DNA from: Fidelibacterota bacterium
GTDB taxonomy: Bacteria; Fidelibacterota; Marinisomatia; Marinisomatales; TCS55
DNA: 64,000 nucleotides
NCBI GenBank assembly: GCA_012964665.1
Contig: DTTO01000065.1
Location: 1 to 64,000, forward strand
Direction: 5' to 3'
Below, one piece after another: positions 32,642 to 39,879 of the stretch. Positions within the stretch are counted from its first letter, which is position 1. Every line of letters begins with the position of its first letter. Below the pieces are notes generated by a model. It was not told the DNA's origin. It did not search any database and saw only the letters and a program-made list of their open reading frames with translations. Position numbers and translations under genes: made by a program.

Positions 32642-33100
32642 ATGAAATTAGATCATACAGACAAAGGAATATTGGAGGAATTACAGACCAACGCCAGGAT
32701 CACAAACGCTGAACTAGCCAAACGCATCAATCTTTCTCCTTCAAGCACCTTGGAGCGGGTGAAAAAGCTGGAAGCAAGTGGATTAATTGACCGCTATGTG
32801 ACCTTACTCGATGAAAGAAAGGCCGGTTATACCTGCATCACTTTCGTAGAAGTGACCTTGGCCCGCCACGGGGAAACTCCAGTTGAAAATTTTTTTAATT
32901 CCATATCAAACATGGATGAAGTACTGGAATGTCATCATATTACTGGAGAGGGAGATTTTCTTCTTAAAATCGCCACTCGCGATATCCCCCAATATGATGA
33001 ATTAATCCTCCATGGCCTGTCCGCGCTGCCCAATGTACAGCATCTCAAGACATCGGTTGTCCTTTCCACTTTTAAACACCAGACAAAGCTGCCCCTTTAA
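32642..33100 (+). CDS. Lrp/AsnC-family transcriptional regulator
   Basis: A 152-residue regulator with an N-terminal winged helix-turn-helix (ITNAELAKRINLSPSSTLERVKKLEASGLI, residues about 20-50) and a C-terminal RAM ligand-binding domain (residues about 65-145; ECHHITGEGDFLLKI). Such proteins sense amino acids. It is the first gene of the tyrosine/homogentisate operon, one base from the aminotransferase start, so it likely senses an aromatic amino acid and controls these genes (inference). No Shine-Dalgarno is visible before the ATG; upstream is AT-rich. Confidence 0.92.
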   Translation: MKLDHTDKGILEELQTNARITNAELAKRINLSPSSTLERVKKLEASGLIDRYVTLLDERKAGYTCITFVEVTLARHGETPVENFFNSISNMDEVLECHHITGEGDFLLKIATRDIPQYDELILHGLSALPNVQHLKTSVVLSTFKHQTKLPL

Positions 33101-33101
33101 T

Positions 33102-34187
33102 ATGCCATTGGTACCACCCTATATCCAAAACTTAGCTAACTATGTGCCCGGTAAACCGATTGCAGAAGTCCAGCGCGAATTTGGTCTCTCTCATGTGGAT
33201 AAATTAGCCTCCAATGAAAATTCTCTTGGCCCCTCTCCAAAGGCAATGAAGGCAATGGTCAAAACATTATCGGGACTCCATCGATATCCCGATGTTTCTG
33301 GCTATGAATTACGTACGAAACTGGCCAAGCGATTCGATATTAAGATGGAAAATGTTATACTAGGCGCCGGCAGCGAGGGTATTATGTCCACTATAATTCG
33401 AACCTTTTTACTCCAAGATGATGAATTAATATCAGCAGCCAATTCATTCATTGGCTTCCGGGTTCTGGCCAATGCATCAGGGAGAAAAATTCATTGGATA
33501 CCCATGAAAAATTACCGCTACGACCTAGAGAAAATTGTAGAAAAGATTAATGAGTACACAAAAATTATTTATATCGCCAATCCGGATAACCCTATGGGAA
33601 CTTATATCACCCGCGATGAATTTGACCAATTCTATTCCCGCGTACCAGAACGCGTTCTAATTATCCTGGACGAAGCCTATTTTGAATTTGCCCAGTCTAT
33701 AGATGACTACCCGAACTCCATGAACTATCGCTACGATAATGTAATCACCCTGAGAACTTTTTCTAAAGCCTACGGTTTGGCGGGCCTGCGAATCGGTTAT
33801 GGATTCGCCCATGATGCGCTCATTAGTAATTTGATGAAAGTCAAAGAGCCCTTTGAACCATCACTTATCGGCCTCATTGCTGGAGCAGCTGCCATGGATG
33901 ATACTGAATTCCTCGAAAAAACTATAACTATGAACCAGGCAGGATATGCTTTTCTTGAAATCGAACTTCAATCACTGGGTGTTGAAACAATTCCCTCAGT
34001 GGCTAATTTTATTACGAGTGTTTGGGATTCAGAGAAAAAAGCCGCGGAAATCACACAAACACTATTACAAAAAGGTGTTATTGTCCGAAACCTTAAGGCA
34101 TTTGGTTGGTCAGAATGCATCCGTGTTTCAATTGGTACGCAAGCAGAAAACAGACGCTTTATTGACGCCTTGAGAACCTTATTATAA
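33102..34187 (+). CDS. HisC-like aminotransferase, probably aromatic amino-acid transaminase of this operon
   Basis: A 361-residue fold-type I enzyme of the histidinol-phosphate aminotransferase family. Motifs are SNENSLGPSPKAMKA, NPDNPMGTYI, LDEAYFEFA and the PLP lysine in TFSKAYGLAGLRIGYG. The track start is in the Lrp gene; the true ATG is at 33102 just after the Lrp stop. HisC relatives often transaminate tyrosine and phenylalanine. Because the next three genes degrade 4-hydroxyphenylpyruvate, I infer that this one makes it from tyrosine. A histidine biosynthetic role cannot be excluded from sequence. Confidence 0.9.
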   Translation: MPLVPPYIQNLANYVPGKPIAEVQREFGLSHVDKLASNENSLGPSPKAMKAMVKTLSGLHRYPDVSGYELRTKLAKRFDIKMENVILGAGSEGIMSTIIRTFLLQDDELISAANSFIGFRVLANASGRKIHWIPMKNYRYDLEKIVEKINEYTKIIYIANPDNPMGTYITRDEFDQFYSRVPERVLIILDEAYFEFAQSIDDYPNSMNYRYDNVITLRTFSKAYGLAGLRIGYGFAHDALISNLMKVKEPFEPSLIGLIAGAAAMDDTEFLEKTITMNQAGYAFLEIELQSLGVETIPSVANFITSVWDSEKKAAEITQTLLQKGVIVRNLKAFGWSECIRVSIGTQAENRRFIDALRTLL

Positions 34188-34203: not shown

Positions 34204-35292
34204 ATGGCCGATTATACAATCAACTCTTTCGACCACTGTGAACTATACGTAAGCAACGCTAAGCAGGCGGCACATTATTATCGGACTACCCTGGGCTTCC
34301 AGCCCATCGCATACCAAGGGCTAGAAACAGGTAGCCGAGACAAAGTAAGTTATGTCATGAAGCAAAACCAGGTCAGGTTCGTTCTCAGTTCTCCCTTAGT
34401 TCCCGGAACGGAAATAGGCCATCACATCGATAAGCACGGTGATGGGGTAAAGGATATTTCATTTTCTGTGGATAACGCCGAAAACGCTTGGAAAGAGACC
34501 ACCACTCGAGGCGCTGAAAGCGTATGCCGACCAAAACTAATTGAGGACGAAAAAGGCGAAGCAATTATTTCCACCATCAAAACATATGGCGACACTACGC
34601 ATACTTTTATCGAGCGAAATAATTATAAAGGTGTTTTCCTCCCAGGCTATTCAGTTATGGATGTGGATGCTGTTGCTGATCCTGTGGGTATTGTTCACAT
34701 TGATCATGTAGTGGGAAATCAGCCAGATGGAGATATGGAACCGGTGTGCAATTTTTATGAAAAAGTATTCGGCTGGCACCGCTTTTGGTCTGTGGATGAC
34801 AAAGATGTATCCACGGAATACAGTGCCCTCCGTTCTATTGTCATGGCTAATGATAATGAAACAATTAAAATGCCGATTAATGAACCAGCAGCAGGACTGA
34901 AGAAATCTCAAATCCAGGAATTTATCGAATTTTATGAGGGCCCCGGAGTCCAGCATATCGCCATGTCCACCCGGGATATTATTGAATCCGTCCAGAAACT
35001 ACGTGCCAATGGGGTGGAGTTTCTTCCTACACCTAAATCATATTATGATACTTTAAAAGAACGCGTCGGTGATTTTGAAGAAGATATAAATACATTAGCA
35101 GAATTAGGCATTCTTGTGGATTCAGATGAAAATGGTTACATGCTCCAAATTTTCACCAAACCGATCCAGGACCGTCCCACCCTGTTTTATGAGATCATCC
35201 AGCGTAAAGGCTCCAATAGTTTTGGCAAAGGAAACTTTCAAGCACTATTCGAATCCATTGAACGGGAACAGGCAACGCGAGGCAATCTATAA
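34204..35292 (+). CDS. hpd: 4-hydroxyphenylpyruvate dioxygenase
   Basis: A 362-residue non-heme iron enzyme converting 4-hydroxyphenylpyruvate to homogentisate. Two VOC halves are visible. The C-terminal half holds the iron ligands: His in VHIDHVVGNQ near residue 168, His in GVQHIAMST near 250, and Glu in FYEIIQRKG near 329. The C-terminal helix region NSFGKGNFQALFESIEREQ is typical. Length is as expected. It follows the aminotransferase by 16 bp with a GGGAG ribosome site. Confidence 0.96.
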   Translation: MADYTINSFDHCELYVSNAKQAAHYYRTTLGFQPIAYQGLETGSRDKVSYVMKQNQVRFVLSSPLVPGTEIGHHIDKHGDGVKDISFSVDNAENAWKETTTRGAESVCRPKLIEDEKGEAIISTIKTYGDTTHTFIERNNYKGVFLPGYSVMDVDAVADPVGIVHIDHVVGNQPDGDMEPVCNFYEKVFGWHRFWSVDDKDVSTEYSALRSIVMANDNETIKMPINEPAAGLKKSQIQEFIEFYEGPGVQHIAMSTRDIIESVQKLRANGVEFLPTPKSYYDTLKERVGDFEEDINTLAELGILVDSDENGYMLQIFTKPIQDRPTLFYEIIQRKGSNSFGKGNFQALFESIEREQATRGNL

Positions 35293-35317: not shown

Positions 35318-36283
35318 ATGAAATTTTTAACTTACACAGAACAGCGAAATACAACCCAAAAGTTCGGTTTTAAAATTGAGAACCACATCATTGATGTGAA
35401 CCTCGCAGCAAAATGGGTGAATGAAGACCAGAATGACAACGTTTTTTTATCCCTCCCAAGTGACCTGAAATCGGCCCTGGCAAAATGGGACACATTTTTT
35501 CCTTTGCTGCAGAAACTGGAAAAGACCATTTCTACTGGTGATTTGGACTCCCTGGCTCAAAATGAATCGGAACTTGTCATTTTACCCCCAATACCAAATC
35601 CTCCGGCTTTTCGTGATTTTTATGCTTTTGAACAACATGTTCGGGCTGCCCGAAAACTGCGGGGATTAGACATGCACCCGGACTGGTTTAAACTGCCCAT
35701 TTTTTACTTTTCAAATCCTAACTGCTGTTTTGGCCATGGGGCTGAAATTTCTTATCCTTCCAATACAGATGAACTTGACTTTGAATTGGAATTCTCAGTG
35801 ATTATTGCTAATGGCGGTTCTGATATCAAATCGGAAGAAGCCCATAAAGTGATCGGGGGATATACTATTTTAAATGACTGGTCTTCCAGAGACCTCCAGC
35901 GACAGGAAATGCCTCTGAGCTTAGGGCCAGCCAAAGGGAAAGACTTTGCTTCCAGTTTCGGCCCGTATATGGTAACTCCCGATGAACTTGAAGATGCCTG
36001 GGACGATGATCACAAACTTCATCTGAGAATGACCTGCCATGTGAACGGTAAACTTATTTCCGATGGCAATACGAATGATCTTTATCATTCTTTTGGAGAT
36101 ATGATCGAACGGGCCAGCATGAATACCAAGCTGCTTCCTGGTGAATATATTGGTTCAGGAACTGTTGGGACAGGCTGCATTCTTGAACTTCGTCCCGAAA
36201 ATACCGGCGGTTGGATTCAAAAAGGGGATGTAGTTACATTAGAAGTTGAACGTCTCGGTATTTTAGAAAACAAAATCGTATAA
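35318..36283 (+). CDS. Fumarylacetoacetate hydrolase family protein
   Basis: A 321-residue FAH-fold enzyme. Metal-binding Glu residues lie in DELDFELEFSVII near residue 150, and the family signature DWSSRDLQRQEMPLSLGPAKGKDF follows. SFGPYMVTPDEL and SGTVGTGCILEL give the C-terminal core. In this operon it should perform the last step, cleaving fumarylacetoacetate to fumarate and acetoacetate. No maleylacetoacetate isomerase gene is nearby, so it may act on maleylacetoacetate directly or the isomerase is elsewhere. It lies between hpd and hmgA. Confidence 0.92.
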   Translation: MKFLTYTEQRNTTQKFGFKIENHIIDVNLAAKWVNEDQNDNVFLSLPSDLKSALAKWDTFFPLLQKLEKTISTGDLDSLAQNESELVILPPIPNPPAFRDFYAFEQHVRAARKLRGLDMHPDWFKLPIFYFSNPNCCFGHGAEISYPSNTDELDFELEFSVIIANGGSDIKSEEAHKVIGGYTILNDWSSRDLQRQEMPLSLGPAKGKDFASSFGPYMVTPDELEDAWDDDHKLHLRMTCHVNGKLISDGNTNDLYHSFGDMIERASMNTKLLPGEYIGSGTVGTGCILELRPENTGGWIQKGDVVTLEVERLGILENKIV

Positions 36284-36289
36284 TCACCC

Positions 36290-37441
36290 ATGCCTTTCTA
36301 TCAAAAACGCGGTCAAATCCCTAATAAGCGCCACATCCAATTCCGGGATGATAGGGGTAATTTATATTGGGAAGAATTAATCAGTCGTAAAGGGTTTAGT
36401 CACATTTATTCTAATGTCTACCATATTCATCCCCCTACCGCTGTTCAAAAGGTTGGTGATATCACAGTTCTTCCATTAGAGGAATGGCACCAGACACACC
36501 GGCACCACCACTTGAAAACACGCGGTTTGGATCATAAAGGTGACGCTGTCACATCCCGTATCCCATTATTCTTTAATAGTGATGTAATTTTATCAAAAGC
36601 GCATACGTCACAGTCAATGAATAGTTTATACCGCAACGGCCATCATGATGAATGTCTCTTCGTACATAGTGGTAAAGGAACCCTTAAATCTAACTTCGGA
36701 ACCCTTGCCCTCACTGGCGGGGACTATGCTATTATTCCCCGGGGCGTGATTTGGCAATTGGATATTGAAAAACCAATGGAATTGCTGGTTGTAGAAACAG
36801 CTGGTCCAATTGAAACACCAGATCGATATCGCAACCGTCTTGGACAATTACTGGAACATTCTCCTTTCAACGAAAGGGACATTAAAACTCCTCAATATGA
36901 AAATCCTGTTTCAGATGGGCCAATTGAAGTAGTCGTTCGCCTCGTTCAAGGACTGCAATCCTACGAGTACAGACATCATCCCTTTGATATTGTCGGGTGG
37001 GATGGTTGTTACTTTCCATGGGCTTTTAACGTGAATGATTTTATGCCTATTACCGGGAAGGTGCATCAGCCTCCTCCTGTACATCAGGTATTTCAAGCGC
37101 CGGGGTTAGTCATTTGCAATTTTGTTCCGCGCATATTTGATTACCATCCCGAAGCTGTGCCAGCACCTTATGCGCACAGCAATGTGGATTCTGATGAAAT
37201 CCTCTACTATGTATCTGGAGATTTTATGAGTCGCAGAGGTATTGAAGAAGGCTCCATTACTTATCATCCTGCCGGTCTACCCCATGGCCCCCAGCCAGAT
37301 AAAATTGAAGAGTCCTTAGGTACCAAGGAAGCAAATGAAATCGCAGTCATGGTGGATACCTTTCATCCTCTGAAAATGACAAATGCAGCAGCCGATATTG
37401 ATGAGTCAGACTATCCGCTTTCCTGGTTAGGTAATTCATGA
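36290..37441 (+). CDS. hmgA: Homogentisate 1,2-dioxygenase
   Basis: A 383-residue cupin-fold iron dioxygenase that opens the homogentisate ring to maleylacetoacetate. Typical segments are MPFYQKRGQIPNKRH at the N-terminus, HHDECLFVHSGKGTLKSNFG, and the metal site region YAHSNVDSDEILYYVSGDF near residue 298 with HPAGLPHGPQPD following. It is shorter than the 430-450-residue human and Pseudomonas forms but matches bacterial short forms. It starts seven bases after the FAH gene and overlaps the flavin-reductase gene by four bases (ATGA). Confidence 0.94.
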   Translation: MPFYQKRGQIPNKRHIQFRDDRGNLYWEELISRKGFSHIYSNVYHIHPPTAVQKVGDITVLPLEEWHQTHRHHHLKTRGLDHKGDAVTSRIPLFFNSDVILSKAHTSQSMNSLYRNGHHDECLFVHSGKGTLKSNFGTLALTGGDYAIIPRGVIWQLDIEKPMELLVVETAGPIETPDRYRNRLGQLLEHSPFNERDIKTPQYENPVSDGPIEVVVRLVQGLQSYEYRHHPFDIVGWDGCYFPWAFNVNDFMPITGKVHQPPPVHQVFQAPGLVICNFVPRIFDYHPEAVPAPYAHSNVDSDEILYYVSGDFMSRRGIEEGSITYHPAGLPHGPQPDKIEESLGTKEANEIAVMVDTFHPLKMTNAAADIDESDYPLSWLGNS

Positions 37442-38061
37442 TTATTGACCCGACCAAACAACCCTTTGATAGTAATCACAAATTGATGATCGGTTCTATC
37501 CTGCCACGTCCAATTGCTTTTGTCTCTACTAAATCAAAAGATGGCATCTTGAATTTGGCTCCTTTTTCTTATTTTAATGGTGTTTGTTCCAACCCACCTA
37601 CAGTCATGTTCGCCCCTGCCCGCCGAGGATATGATGGGTTGACCAAAGACACTTTAAACAATATCCGCGACACTGAAGAATTCGTGGTCAATATAGTATC
37701 AGAGCAAATAGCCGAACCTATGGTGGCCTGCGCCACAGACTTTGACAAGGATGTGGATGAATTTGAAGTTTCAGGGTTGACACCCGTTGATTCCGTCAAA
37801 GTGGTACCGCCACGGGTGAAAGAGTCCAAAGTCAGTTTTGAGTGCACGCTCAATACTATCGTACCTGTTGGCGAAGCGGGGCCTGGTGGTGGTTTCGTGG
37901 TCATCGGCACAATCATTATGTTTCATATAGATGATGAGGTTTACACCGATGGCCGGATTGATTTGAACACCCTGAATCCCGTTGGTCGGCTGGCAGGAAA
38001 TTATTATACCCGGGTACACGATACCTTTAAAATCGTTCGCCAGATCAAACCAGATAATTAA
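37438..38061 (+). CDS. Flavin reductase-like FMN-binding split-barrel protein
   Basis: A 207-residue protein of the flavin reductase-like domain family: MIGSILPRPIAFVSTKSKDG, NLAPFSYFNGVCSNPPTVMF and the later RLAGNYYTRVHDTF. These bind FMN and may supply reduced flavin to a monooxygenase or act as flavin-dependent oxidoreductases. Its start overlaps the hmgA stop as ATGA, so it belongs to the tyrosine operon. Its task here is unclear, since the core homogentisate route needs no flavin. It could support a hydroxylation feeding the pathway (inference). Confidence 0.9.
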   Translation: MIIDPTKQPFDSNHKLMIGSILPRPIAFVSTKSKDGILNLAPFSYFNGVCSNPPTVMFAPARRGYDGLTKDTLNNIRDTEEFVVNIVSEQIAEPMVACATDFDKDVDEFEVSGLTPVDSVKVVPPRVKESKVSFECTLNTIVPVGEAGPGGGFVVIGTIIMFHIDDEVYTDGRIDLNTLNPVGRLAGNYYTRVHDTFKIVRQIKPDN

Positions 38062-38149: not shown

Positions 38150-39079
38150 ATGACAGATCTTCAACAACGCATCTACCGAGCCCAGTGCCTGGGCAATGTG
38201 GAACCGATTGAACATATGGTCCCCTATCCCAACCTGCGGGCGTTGGTAGATGGCCAGAACGTGAAGTATGGCAAAAAGATGGTTTACGCTGACCTAGGCC
38301 TTTCATCGGATAAAGTATACCGATTGGCCCAACAAACCGCTAACTGGCTTATCTCAGAAGGGATAAAACCTAAAGATCGAATTCTCATGGACAAACTCAC
38401 CTTTCCTCAATGCGAAATACTGGCATTTGGTATCTGGACATTGGGCGGCTCGTTGATATTAACAGGTGATGATGACTTGATAGGCGCTGAAAAAGCGACT
38501 GCTCCAGCTTTGACCATTACAACTAAAACAGATTATTTCGAGAAAATCAAAGCATTTCCAGAGTACCACGATCCAACATTCAAACCACTTCTCCAACATG
38601 AGGCCATGGTCTTTTGGGATAAAGGCATTGGCTACCGCCTTAGCCACTATAACTTGTTGGTGAATGCCAACGGGATCCAGCATGCCATTGATCTGTTTGA
38701 GAATCAGACTTATTGTGTCAATATGGATCCCAATTCAACAGCCTGGGTAATCCTGCAAACAATGCTGCCACTTTATACAGGTGCGCCTCTAACATCTGTA
38801 AACCCGAATTTAAGAATCGGAATTCCTGGCCAGTATAAAAATATGGATTATTGTGTCCGATTTGATTGGGATCAGCTCAAAGAAACCAACCCCCCATCCC
38901 TTTACGCCTGCAATGAGAACACAGGCTTCCTAGCGATCAACCAACAGCCAATCCATTTGACAGAAATGGATGATGCTAACATTCCAAAACAGATATCCGG
39001 TCATTCAGTTATGATGGGTTATACAGATAATAAACGTAATGATAAGTTCTTCAAAAATGGAGGACTAATTATTCATTGA
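38150..39079 (+). CDS. Degenerate, short ANL-superfamily (acyl-CoA synthetase-like) protein
   Basis: A 309-residue protein that aligns by eye with the N-terminal subdomain of AMP-forming synthetases (VYRLAQQTANWLISEGIKPKDRI, then GIWTLGGSLILTGDDD). The adenylation P-loop, normally YTSGTTGxPKGV before SHxNLL, is absent: the equivalent stretch reads MVFWDKGIGYRLSHYNLLVN. The protein stops at the A7 region (KNGGLIIH), so the Asp of TGD and the whole C-terminal lid with the catalytic lysine are missing. It is an intact ORF at the end of the tyrosine operon. It is either a pseudoenzyme with a new role or a decayed gene; the uninterrupted frame favours the former. Confidence 0.72.
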   Translation: MTDLQQRIYRAQCLGNVEPIEHMVPYPNLRALVDGQNVKYGKKMVYADLGLSSDKVYRLAQQTANWLISEGIKPKDRILMDKLTFPQCEILAFGIWTLGGSLILTGDDDLIGAEKATAPALTITTKTDYFEKIKAFPEYHDPTFKPLLQHEAMVFWDKGIGYRLSHYNLLVNANGIQHAIDLFENQTYCVNMDPNSTAWVILQTMLPLYTGAPLTSVNPNLRIGIPGQYKNMDYCVRFDWDQLKETNPPSLYACNENTGFLAINQQPIHLTEMDDANIPKQISGHSVMMGYTDNKRNDKFFKNGGLIIH

Positions 39080-39162: not shown

Positions 39163-39879
39163 TTATTCCAAATTTTTCTCAAGATAATTTAACATTTTCT
39201 TCTGTTGAGTCAGCCATCCCAGCCTCACTTCAATATTCACATATCGAACCCCATTTCGCATAGCTGCCCATGAGAGCGATCCGTCATCTTTCTGCGGGAG
39301 TTTTTCTTGAAGAACCACATTAAAAGGTGATCTGACCAAGGCCTCAAAATCCGTTCGATCCGTACAAATAAAAAAGTCTCTCGGATTTTGATCTTTTTTG
39401 ATGGACACACTATCACTCTTTTGAATTTCCCGATTTACATTGTAGCCCTTGAAATTGTTATGAAGGGCAACCAGCAGCCCTCCATTTTTTGGAAAAATAC
39501 TTTCCAAAAATGCATCCCTTTCTCGATTGATCCATTCCAATGCTTCTTGTTTTTTTAAGCTAGACCAACTGCGGTTATATTTTTGAATATTCGCTTCGGC
39601 ACCCATGGAAGAAAAGATGCGATTCGGGTCTAAAATGCCATCAAAAAAATCTATTTCCCGTGTTTCCCCCTGAATAAAAAAAGCCGTTCCCAAATTCAAT
39701 TTCATGTGGCTTTCAAGGGCCATTCGGGCGGTTTGCTCATCTCCGTGAAGCCAGATATATCTCCGATCTGAATTTCCTTTTTTCACCACCTTGAAATCGA
39801 TCTCTCCTAGCTTGATAACATCATCCTGCATTGATGGAATAATCAGTAAGCTGAATAAAATGGAATGTATTGTTATCAC
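39163..39879 (-). CDS. Secreted M14/AstE-type zinc carboxypeptidase-like protein
   Basis: A 238-residue protein with a short signal (GTG start). Pieces of the AstE/M14 fold are visible: WLHGDEQTAR (the HxxE zinc pair), DPNRIFSS (matching the DxNRxF substrate loop), LVALHNNFKGY (third zinc His) and YVNIEVRLG with the catalytic-type Glu near the C-terminus. This assignment is by motif order only and the overall similarity is weak. It would be a small periplasmic amidase or peptidase. It is convergent with the tyrosine operon and divergent from the BamE-like gene. Confidence 0.6.
   Translation of the reverse strand: MITIHSILFSLLIIPSMQDDVIKLGEIDFKVVKKGNSDRRYIWLHGDEQTARMALESHMKLNLGTAFFIQGETREIDFFDGILDPNRIFSSMGAEANIQKYNRSWSSLKKQEALEWINRERDAFLESIFPKNGGLLVALHNNFKGYNVNREIQKSDSVSIKKDQNPRDFFICTDRTDFEALVRSPFNVVLQEKLPQKDDGSLSWAAMRNGVRYVNIEVRLGWLTQQKKMLNYLEKNLE

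Follow-up and report, generated by a model that had tools for sequence, protein, structure and literature searches.

The last gene of a tyrosine-degradation operon in the 64,000-nt stretch of DNA analyzed here (the window) encodes a pseudoenzyme derived from the ANL fold (pseudo-ANL), which has been maintained under purifying selection and at a conserved length after loss of its catalytic motifs. The protein was confirmed to be an N-terminal ANL domain that has neither the P-loop nor the C-terminal lid, and its ancestor was a full-length acyl-CoA synthetase of the kind found in the corresponding operon of G122, a genome from another class of the same phylum. Because the gene is retained intact throughout its order, often after the tyrosine pathway has been lost, the protein probably acquired a new, non-enzymatic job. 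The reading that we favor, at about even confidence, is that of a neofunctionalized, non-catalytic ANL protein with a binding or regulatory role, which the tyrosine operon inherited and to which it is not specific.

The operon and the truncated ANL domain

All coordinates are positions in the window, and residue numbers refer to the 309-residue product of the ORF at 38150..39079. As the initial annotation had stated, the frame is open over 309 codons; it begins with ATG and holds no internal stop. The gene is the seventh and final member of a co-directional series (Table 1), and signals for a promoter of its own in front of it or a terminator behind it did not rise above those in shuffled sequence.

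Table 1. Genes of the operon and features of the pseudo-ANL protein in the window.
Feature	Position	Strand	Evidence or remark
Lrp/AsnC-type regulator, operon head	32642..33100	+	Translation; L043 orthologue 75% identical
HisC-like aminotransferase	33099..34187	+	TIGR01141 5.5e-97, over cut-off
HPPD (4-hydroxyphenylpyruvate dioxygenase)	34204..35292	+	TIGR01263 460.8 bits vs cut-off 277
FAH (fumarylacetoacetate hydrolase) family protein	35318..36283	+	PF01557 5e-52
HGD-like cupin, short, 383 aa	36290..37441	+	PF20510 43 bits; TIGR01015 71.7 bits vs cut-off 510.75
FLR (flavin reductase-like protein)	37438..38061	+	PF01613
ANL-derived pseudoenzyme, 309 aa	38150..39079	+	ORF, family profile, alignment, AF2 model
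Family-specific N-terminal segment, residues 8-40, IYxAQCxGNVEPIEYMVPYPNxRxLxxGQNxKY	38171..38269	+	Alignment A2
FWDKGIGYR, residues 155-163, at the ANL P-loop (A3) site	38612..38638	+	Alignment with intact ANL enzymes
LSHYNLLVNANG(I), residues 164-176	38639..38677	+	Fold-core part with the strongest conservation; Y167 and N172 invariant
E256, equivalent to the A5 glutamate (YGxTE)	38915..38917	+	Present in 61/62
GHSVMMGY, residues 284-291, A7-region remnant	38999..39022	+	Alignment; TGD aspartate and lid missing after it

Several neighbors deserve comment. TIGR01141 scores the aminotransferase as a histidinol-phosphate transaminase, and its context points to an aromatic aminotransferase; judged by position, it presumably serves the operon as tyrosine aminotransferase, and the histidinol-phosphate label in these genomes is likely a misannotation. 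The homogentisate dioxygenase of the window is missed by standard models because it is of a short, divergent type. The role of FLR in a homogentisate operon is not obvious. Downstream, on the opposite strand (39163-39879), lies an unrelated 238-aa protein that matches no Pfam family and adjoins the pseudo-ANL gene in many genomes of family f1, including those of the operon-less genus g8.

Taken alone, the window protein matched PF00501 weakly (21.5 bits, residues 50-101) and below the curated cut-off of 29.9, and annotation pipelines would therefore label the gene hypothetical. A phmmer search of the PDB with the single sequence likewise returned only noise (AcrA, 0.1), so that a family profile was needed. 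That profile aligned over residues 45-307 to structures of 2-succinylbenzoate-CoA ligase (MenE) at 4e-14, as well as to other ANL structures, and the AMP-binding family (PF00501) was matched by 35 of 37 family members, with a best E of 4.9e-46. The AF2 model of the 309-aa protein (mean pLDDT 95.6, pTM 0.93) found its best PDB matches by Foldseek among ANL N-domains, with E down to 1.6e-14 and TM-scores by query length of 0.64-0.76. Similarly, the model of a longer relative, L145 (pLDDT 85.5), matched ANL enzymes at 2e-27. The family profile, the relatives and the fold search together rule out a chance resemblance. The proposal that the protein keeps an ANL N-domain and has lost the adenylation P-loop and the lid was thus upheld, both by the fold search and by the alignment described next.

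For this alignment the window protein was set against the intact ANL enzymes of its own genome and other full-length ANL enzymes. FWDKGIGYR occupies the position at which the aligned intact enzymes carry YTSGTTGKPKGV, and the P-loop expression (SGTTGxPK, A3) was matched by none of 146 family sequences, some of which are present twice via different searches. The family comprises short forms, including the window protein, and long forms. The ribose-binding aspartate of A7 (TGD) is gone from the short forms and is replaced by TGE, TEE or TGL in the long ones. The C-terminal lid, with the A8 hinge and the A10 lysine, is absent; short forms stop before the hinge and long forms at it, and the window protein has no sequence past the A7 region. 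Additionally, we identified a third loss, which the initial annotation did not notice, of about 100 internal residues that longer relatives have. These are missing from the short forms between LPLY and PENTA as well as ahead of GHSVMMGY, and the long forms retain both stretches.

Other positions are strongly conserved, as judged from an alignment of 62 sequences (A2). Within the N-terminal segment Q12, P19, E21, P25 and P27 are invariant, and the family retains SHYNLLVN after the P-loop site. W96 and G99 are also invariant, and W96 is absent from the aligned intact enzymes; E21, W96 and H285 each occur in 62/62 sequences, a pattern that points to newly acquired constraint. Of the features of a functional acyl-CoA synthetase, the protein has the A5 glutamate (E256) and lacks the P-loop, the TGD aspartate and the lid.

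Distribution, descent and selection

A sequence search recovered the pseudo-ANL gene in 78 of 101 relatives and a profile search in 79, the added carrier being G043, whose copy is broken across two frames. Nearly all carriers have a single copy, and the gene belongs to one order of Neomarinimicrobiota, in which every family but the genome-reduced f15 has it; the carriers with named records are MAGs and single-cell genomes of Candidatus Neomarinimicrobiota / Marinimicrobia. Short forms have a median of 307 aa (56 of 59 measure 300-315 aa) and constitute one clade with support of 100/100; the window protein is of this shortest form. Long forms of 347-428 aa, from families f3, f4, f5 and f8, make up another clade (98/90), and in the tree the two together exclude all ANL paralogues. 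The initial annotation proposed to test homologues for conserved length and the same missing motifs, and both were observed.

The origin of the family is seen in G122, where a 568-aa full-length ANL enzyme (L157:6279-7982) is encoded right after HPPD-FAH-HGD-FLR. Every catalytic motif of this enzyme is intact, namely YTSGTTGKPKGV, SGD, a GRLKELIIRGG hinge and the TSTGK lysine, and its N-terminus (RAQTVREIPPGDRLVPY) is related to the family-specific segment of the pseudo-ANL. When 245 genomes of the phylum were scanned with it, a long-form pseudoenzyme (36%, 7e-84) was the best non-self match and ranked above any true ANL enzyme; the nearest solved relatives of the G122 enzyme are oxalate/oxalyl-CoA ligases, followed by fatty-acyl/feruloyl-CoA synthetases. 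Furthermore, the C-terminus of the long forms coincides exactly with the lid hinge (..FFFITGR in G122 versus ..LYYISG-stop in L051). The G122 enzyme and the pseudo-ANL are therefore alike in operon position, N-terminus and affinity to the long forms, whereas the P-loop, the TGD-type aspartate, the hinge, the A10 lysine and a length of 568 versus 309 aa set the enzyme apart from the window protein. With this enzyme, the hinge-ending long forms and the short forms, the steps from enzyme through intermediate to compact protein are all represented; since ancestor-like, hinge-truncated and minimal forms are all extant, the path from enzyme to non-enzyme is directly testable.

Families f22/f23, which belong to this phylum too, have a second group of ANL proteins without a P-loop, very divergent and 302-392 aa long (genomes G102, G103, G105, G114, G120 and G121; loci include L223:7346-9105, L225:7268-8173 and L226:6734-7879). 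These proteins resemble the order's pseudo-ANL in having neither P-loop nor lid and in a related N-terminus (such as GIPYDEEVVPFPNF) where that end is complete. They differ in their strong divergence and in their surroundings, since the tyrosine operon was not found in the stretches read. The neighbors, MotA/MotB-like or glycosyltransferase genes, are unrelated to the window operon except for FLR in G103, a single-contig genome of another class, where FLR and the pseudo-ANL gene overlap by one base beside MotA/MotB-like genes. Two trees differ on how these groups are related: one makes G122 sister to the order's pseudoenzymes (94/86) and the other unites all pseudoenzymes (95/82), and the AU test of one versus two P-loop losses (in the order's form and in f22/f23) gave p 0.305.

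Selection was measured as pairwise Nei-Gojobori dN/dS. The pseudo-ANL genes of the window and G002 gave 0.126, within the span of 0.045-0.168 seen for operon and flanking neighbors in the same pair, and nearly all other usable pairs fell at 0.07-0.3. A single pair, L051/L052, gave a high ratio (0.50), with a dS of only 0.07 behind it. The initial annotation held that the gene is maintained, and the conserved length, these ratios and the same missing motifs in every homologue bear this out. It had also named the pattern expected of decay, full-length active homologues beside a copy under relaxed selection; a full-length homologue does exist, but the short form is under purifying selection.

Tyrosine breakdown and the flavin reductase

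The initial annotation suggested that the protein could bind an aromatic acid or CoA ester as a sensor or scaffold for tyrosine breakdown. In such a pathway-specific role it would bind an aromatic acid or an acetoacetyl/fumarylacetoacetate-type intermediate and tune the operon or hold its enzymes together. In agreement with the initial description of the locus, wherever a tyrosine operon is present the gene in most cases closes it. Where 6.5 kb or more of upstream sequence was available (54 loci), HPPD lies upstream in 34, tyrosine phenol-lyase in 4, an adjacent FLR without HPPD in 5 and none of these in 11. Furthermore, 50 of the 52 genomes with a genuine HPPD carry the gene, and the other two are explained by contigs that end inside the operon. 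In families f2, f12 and f13 the pseudo-ANL gene directly follows tyrosine phenol-lyase (TIGR02618 over cut-off; 751 bits in L047), a tyrosine-degrading enzyme unrelated to the HPPD route, in an operon headed by an Lrp gene equivalent to that of the window. It is suggestive that two unrelated tyrosine-degrading systems end in this gene. The double association can, however, be explained by descent, because the chromosomal position and the upstream amino-acid catabolism genes are shared; L048 carries both gene sets.

Two replacements were observed at these loci. In f2, f12 and f13 tyrosine phenol-lyase (L047:7628-9007) takes the place of the HPPD route and is preceded by a cluster of methionine gamma-lyase, homoserine dehydrogenase and aldehyde dehydrogenase genes. 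In family f8, FAH has been swapped at the same position for a fumarylacetoacetase of a different type (L054:10174-11469; TIGR01266, 607 bits), which is 27% identical to the window FAH.

A dedicated component of the tyrosine pathway would occur only with that pathway, and this is not the case. HPPD is lacking from 29 of the 79 pseudo-ANL genomes, ten of which are at least 90% complete (G005, G020, G027, G040, G051, G054, G057, G058, G060 and G062), and both HPPD and tyrosine phenol-lyase are absent from the surroundings of 16 of the 54 loci. The tyrosine operon is present in about half of the genomes, and the pseudo-ANL gene outlasts every operon neighbor: in G005 the operon is reduced to FLR and the pseudo-ANL gene, and in g8 the latter stands alone at the same chromosomal position. 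Purifying selection persists at such lone or FLR-only loci. Pairs from HPPD-less loci (L018/L019, L016/L017, L022/L024 and L024/L117) gave dN/dS of 0.09-0.21, including 0.091 and 0.111 for the g8 pairs L018/L019 and L016/L017 and 0.168 for the f9 pair L022/L024, in which G047 has no HPPD at all and G059 has one on another contig. The distant pseudo-ANLs beside MotA/MotB-like or glycosyltransferase genes also speak against a tyrosine-specific role, which we consider unlikely.

FLR is the commonest immediate upstream neighbor, on the same strand and with a gap below 200 bp in 45 of 73 loci. It stands immediately upstream in 31 of the 54 loci with at least 6.5 kb of upstream sequence, and HPPD is gone in 5 of those. 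FLR often stays beside the pseudo-ANL gene after other operon genes are lost. At many pseudo-ANL loci, such as those of genus g8, it is absent and thus is no obligate partner everywhere. From these associations we infer that FLR is the best single candidate for a partner of the pseudo-ANL. A more far-reaching proposal, to which we give only a minor share of our confidence, is that an FMN-binding FLR and a lidless pseudo-ANL might form a phylum-wide module that senses acyl/CoA or redox state and regulates catabolism, having arisen from the operon synthetase and later become free of the pathway. If this reading is true, the module would represent a new class of ANL-based regulatory protein.

Possible functions and known systems

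According to our results, the operon synthetase lost its lid, P-loop and TGD aspartate together with about 100 internal residues, and the N-domain core that remains is under purifying selection across the order. Such a core would no longer form an acyl-adenylate, which would have ended its action as a synthetase. It may instead serve as a non-catalytic binding module, through the remnant of the old acyl/nucleotide pocket, the conserved N-terminal segment or both, and might sense a small acid or CoA ester or dock on a partner protein and regulate it. Its location in the tyrosine operon would then reflect descent, and its function would be broader than tyrosine breakdown.

The fold is shared with the N-domains of MenE, of oxalyl-CoA, malonyl-CoA and feruloyl-CoA synthetases and of NRPS adenylation domains. 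Unlike these, the pseudo-ANL is without the P-loop, the TGD aspartate, the C-terminal domain and about 100 internal residues, and it adds a distinct, conserved N-terminal segment. Pseudoenzymes as such are known, and degenerate NRPS adenylation domains are ANL domains thought to be dead in catalysis and kept as structural parts. Those domains are parts of multidomain synthetases, whereas the pseudo-ANL is a free-standing, single-copy gene found order-wide. A search of the open-access literature returned nothing relevant on ANL or acyl/acetyl-CoA synthetase pseudoenzymes, no free-standing, order-wide ANL family without lid and P-loop, and nothing relevant on tyrosine or homogentisate degradation in Marinimicrobia/SAR406. 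In this family, one of the commonest metabolic folds would have given rise to a free-standing, lineage-wide pseudoenzyme. Its gene is near-universal yet unannotated in an uncultured marine lineage, and its ties to FLR and tyrosine use provide a concrete entry point.

Conservation of E256 and the SHYN segment leaves room for unrecognized chemistry, against the non-catalytic view. The lidless core could have been re-used for a different reaction on a CoA or acyl compound (hydrolysis, transfer or isomerization), its new active site being formed by E256, H166, Y167 and H285; these residues are invariant or nearly so in a family that has lost its adenylation motifs, and the neighbors at the loci are mostly catabolic enzymes. 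However, the intact G122 enzyme already has H285 and the YN after the P-loop, so part of their conservation is inherited, and much of the strongest conservation is found in the N-terminal segment rather than solely around the old active site. We therefore regard a new catalyst as rather improbable and retain the non-catalytic binding or regulatory protein as the favored reading.

The protein could also be one half of a split synthetase, whose lid or partner ANL domain would be supplied in trans by a separate gene. Such split or lid-dependent ANL enzymes can be imagined, and the truncation falls exactly at a domain boundary. Yet the P-loop belongs to the half that was retained and is lost all the same, so a lid in trans cannot restore ATP use, and no lid-sized partner gene was noticed adjoining the pseudo-ANL at the loci read; this arrangement is very improbable.

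A functionless, decaying synthetase remnant, which the lost motifs and lid and the split gene of G043 might suggest, is hardly credible and is refuted by the conserved length, the frames intact in nearly all genomes, dN/dS mostly at 0.07-0.3, lineage-wide retention and the well-folded model. The split-frame gene of G043 (L163:342-1560) adjoins an intact HPPD and an HGD that is likewise split, and its own split reflects either a sequencing error or local decay.
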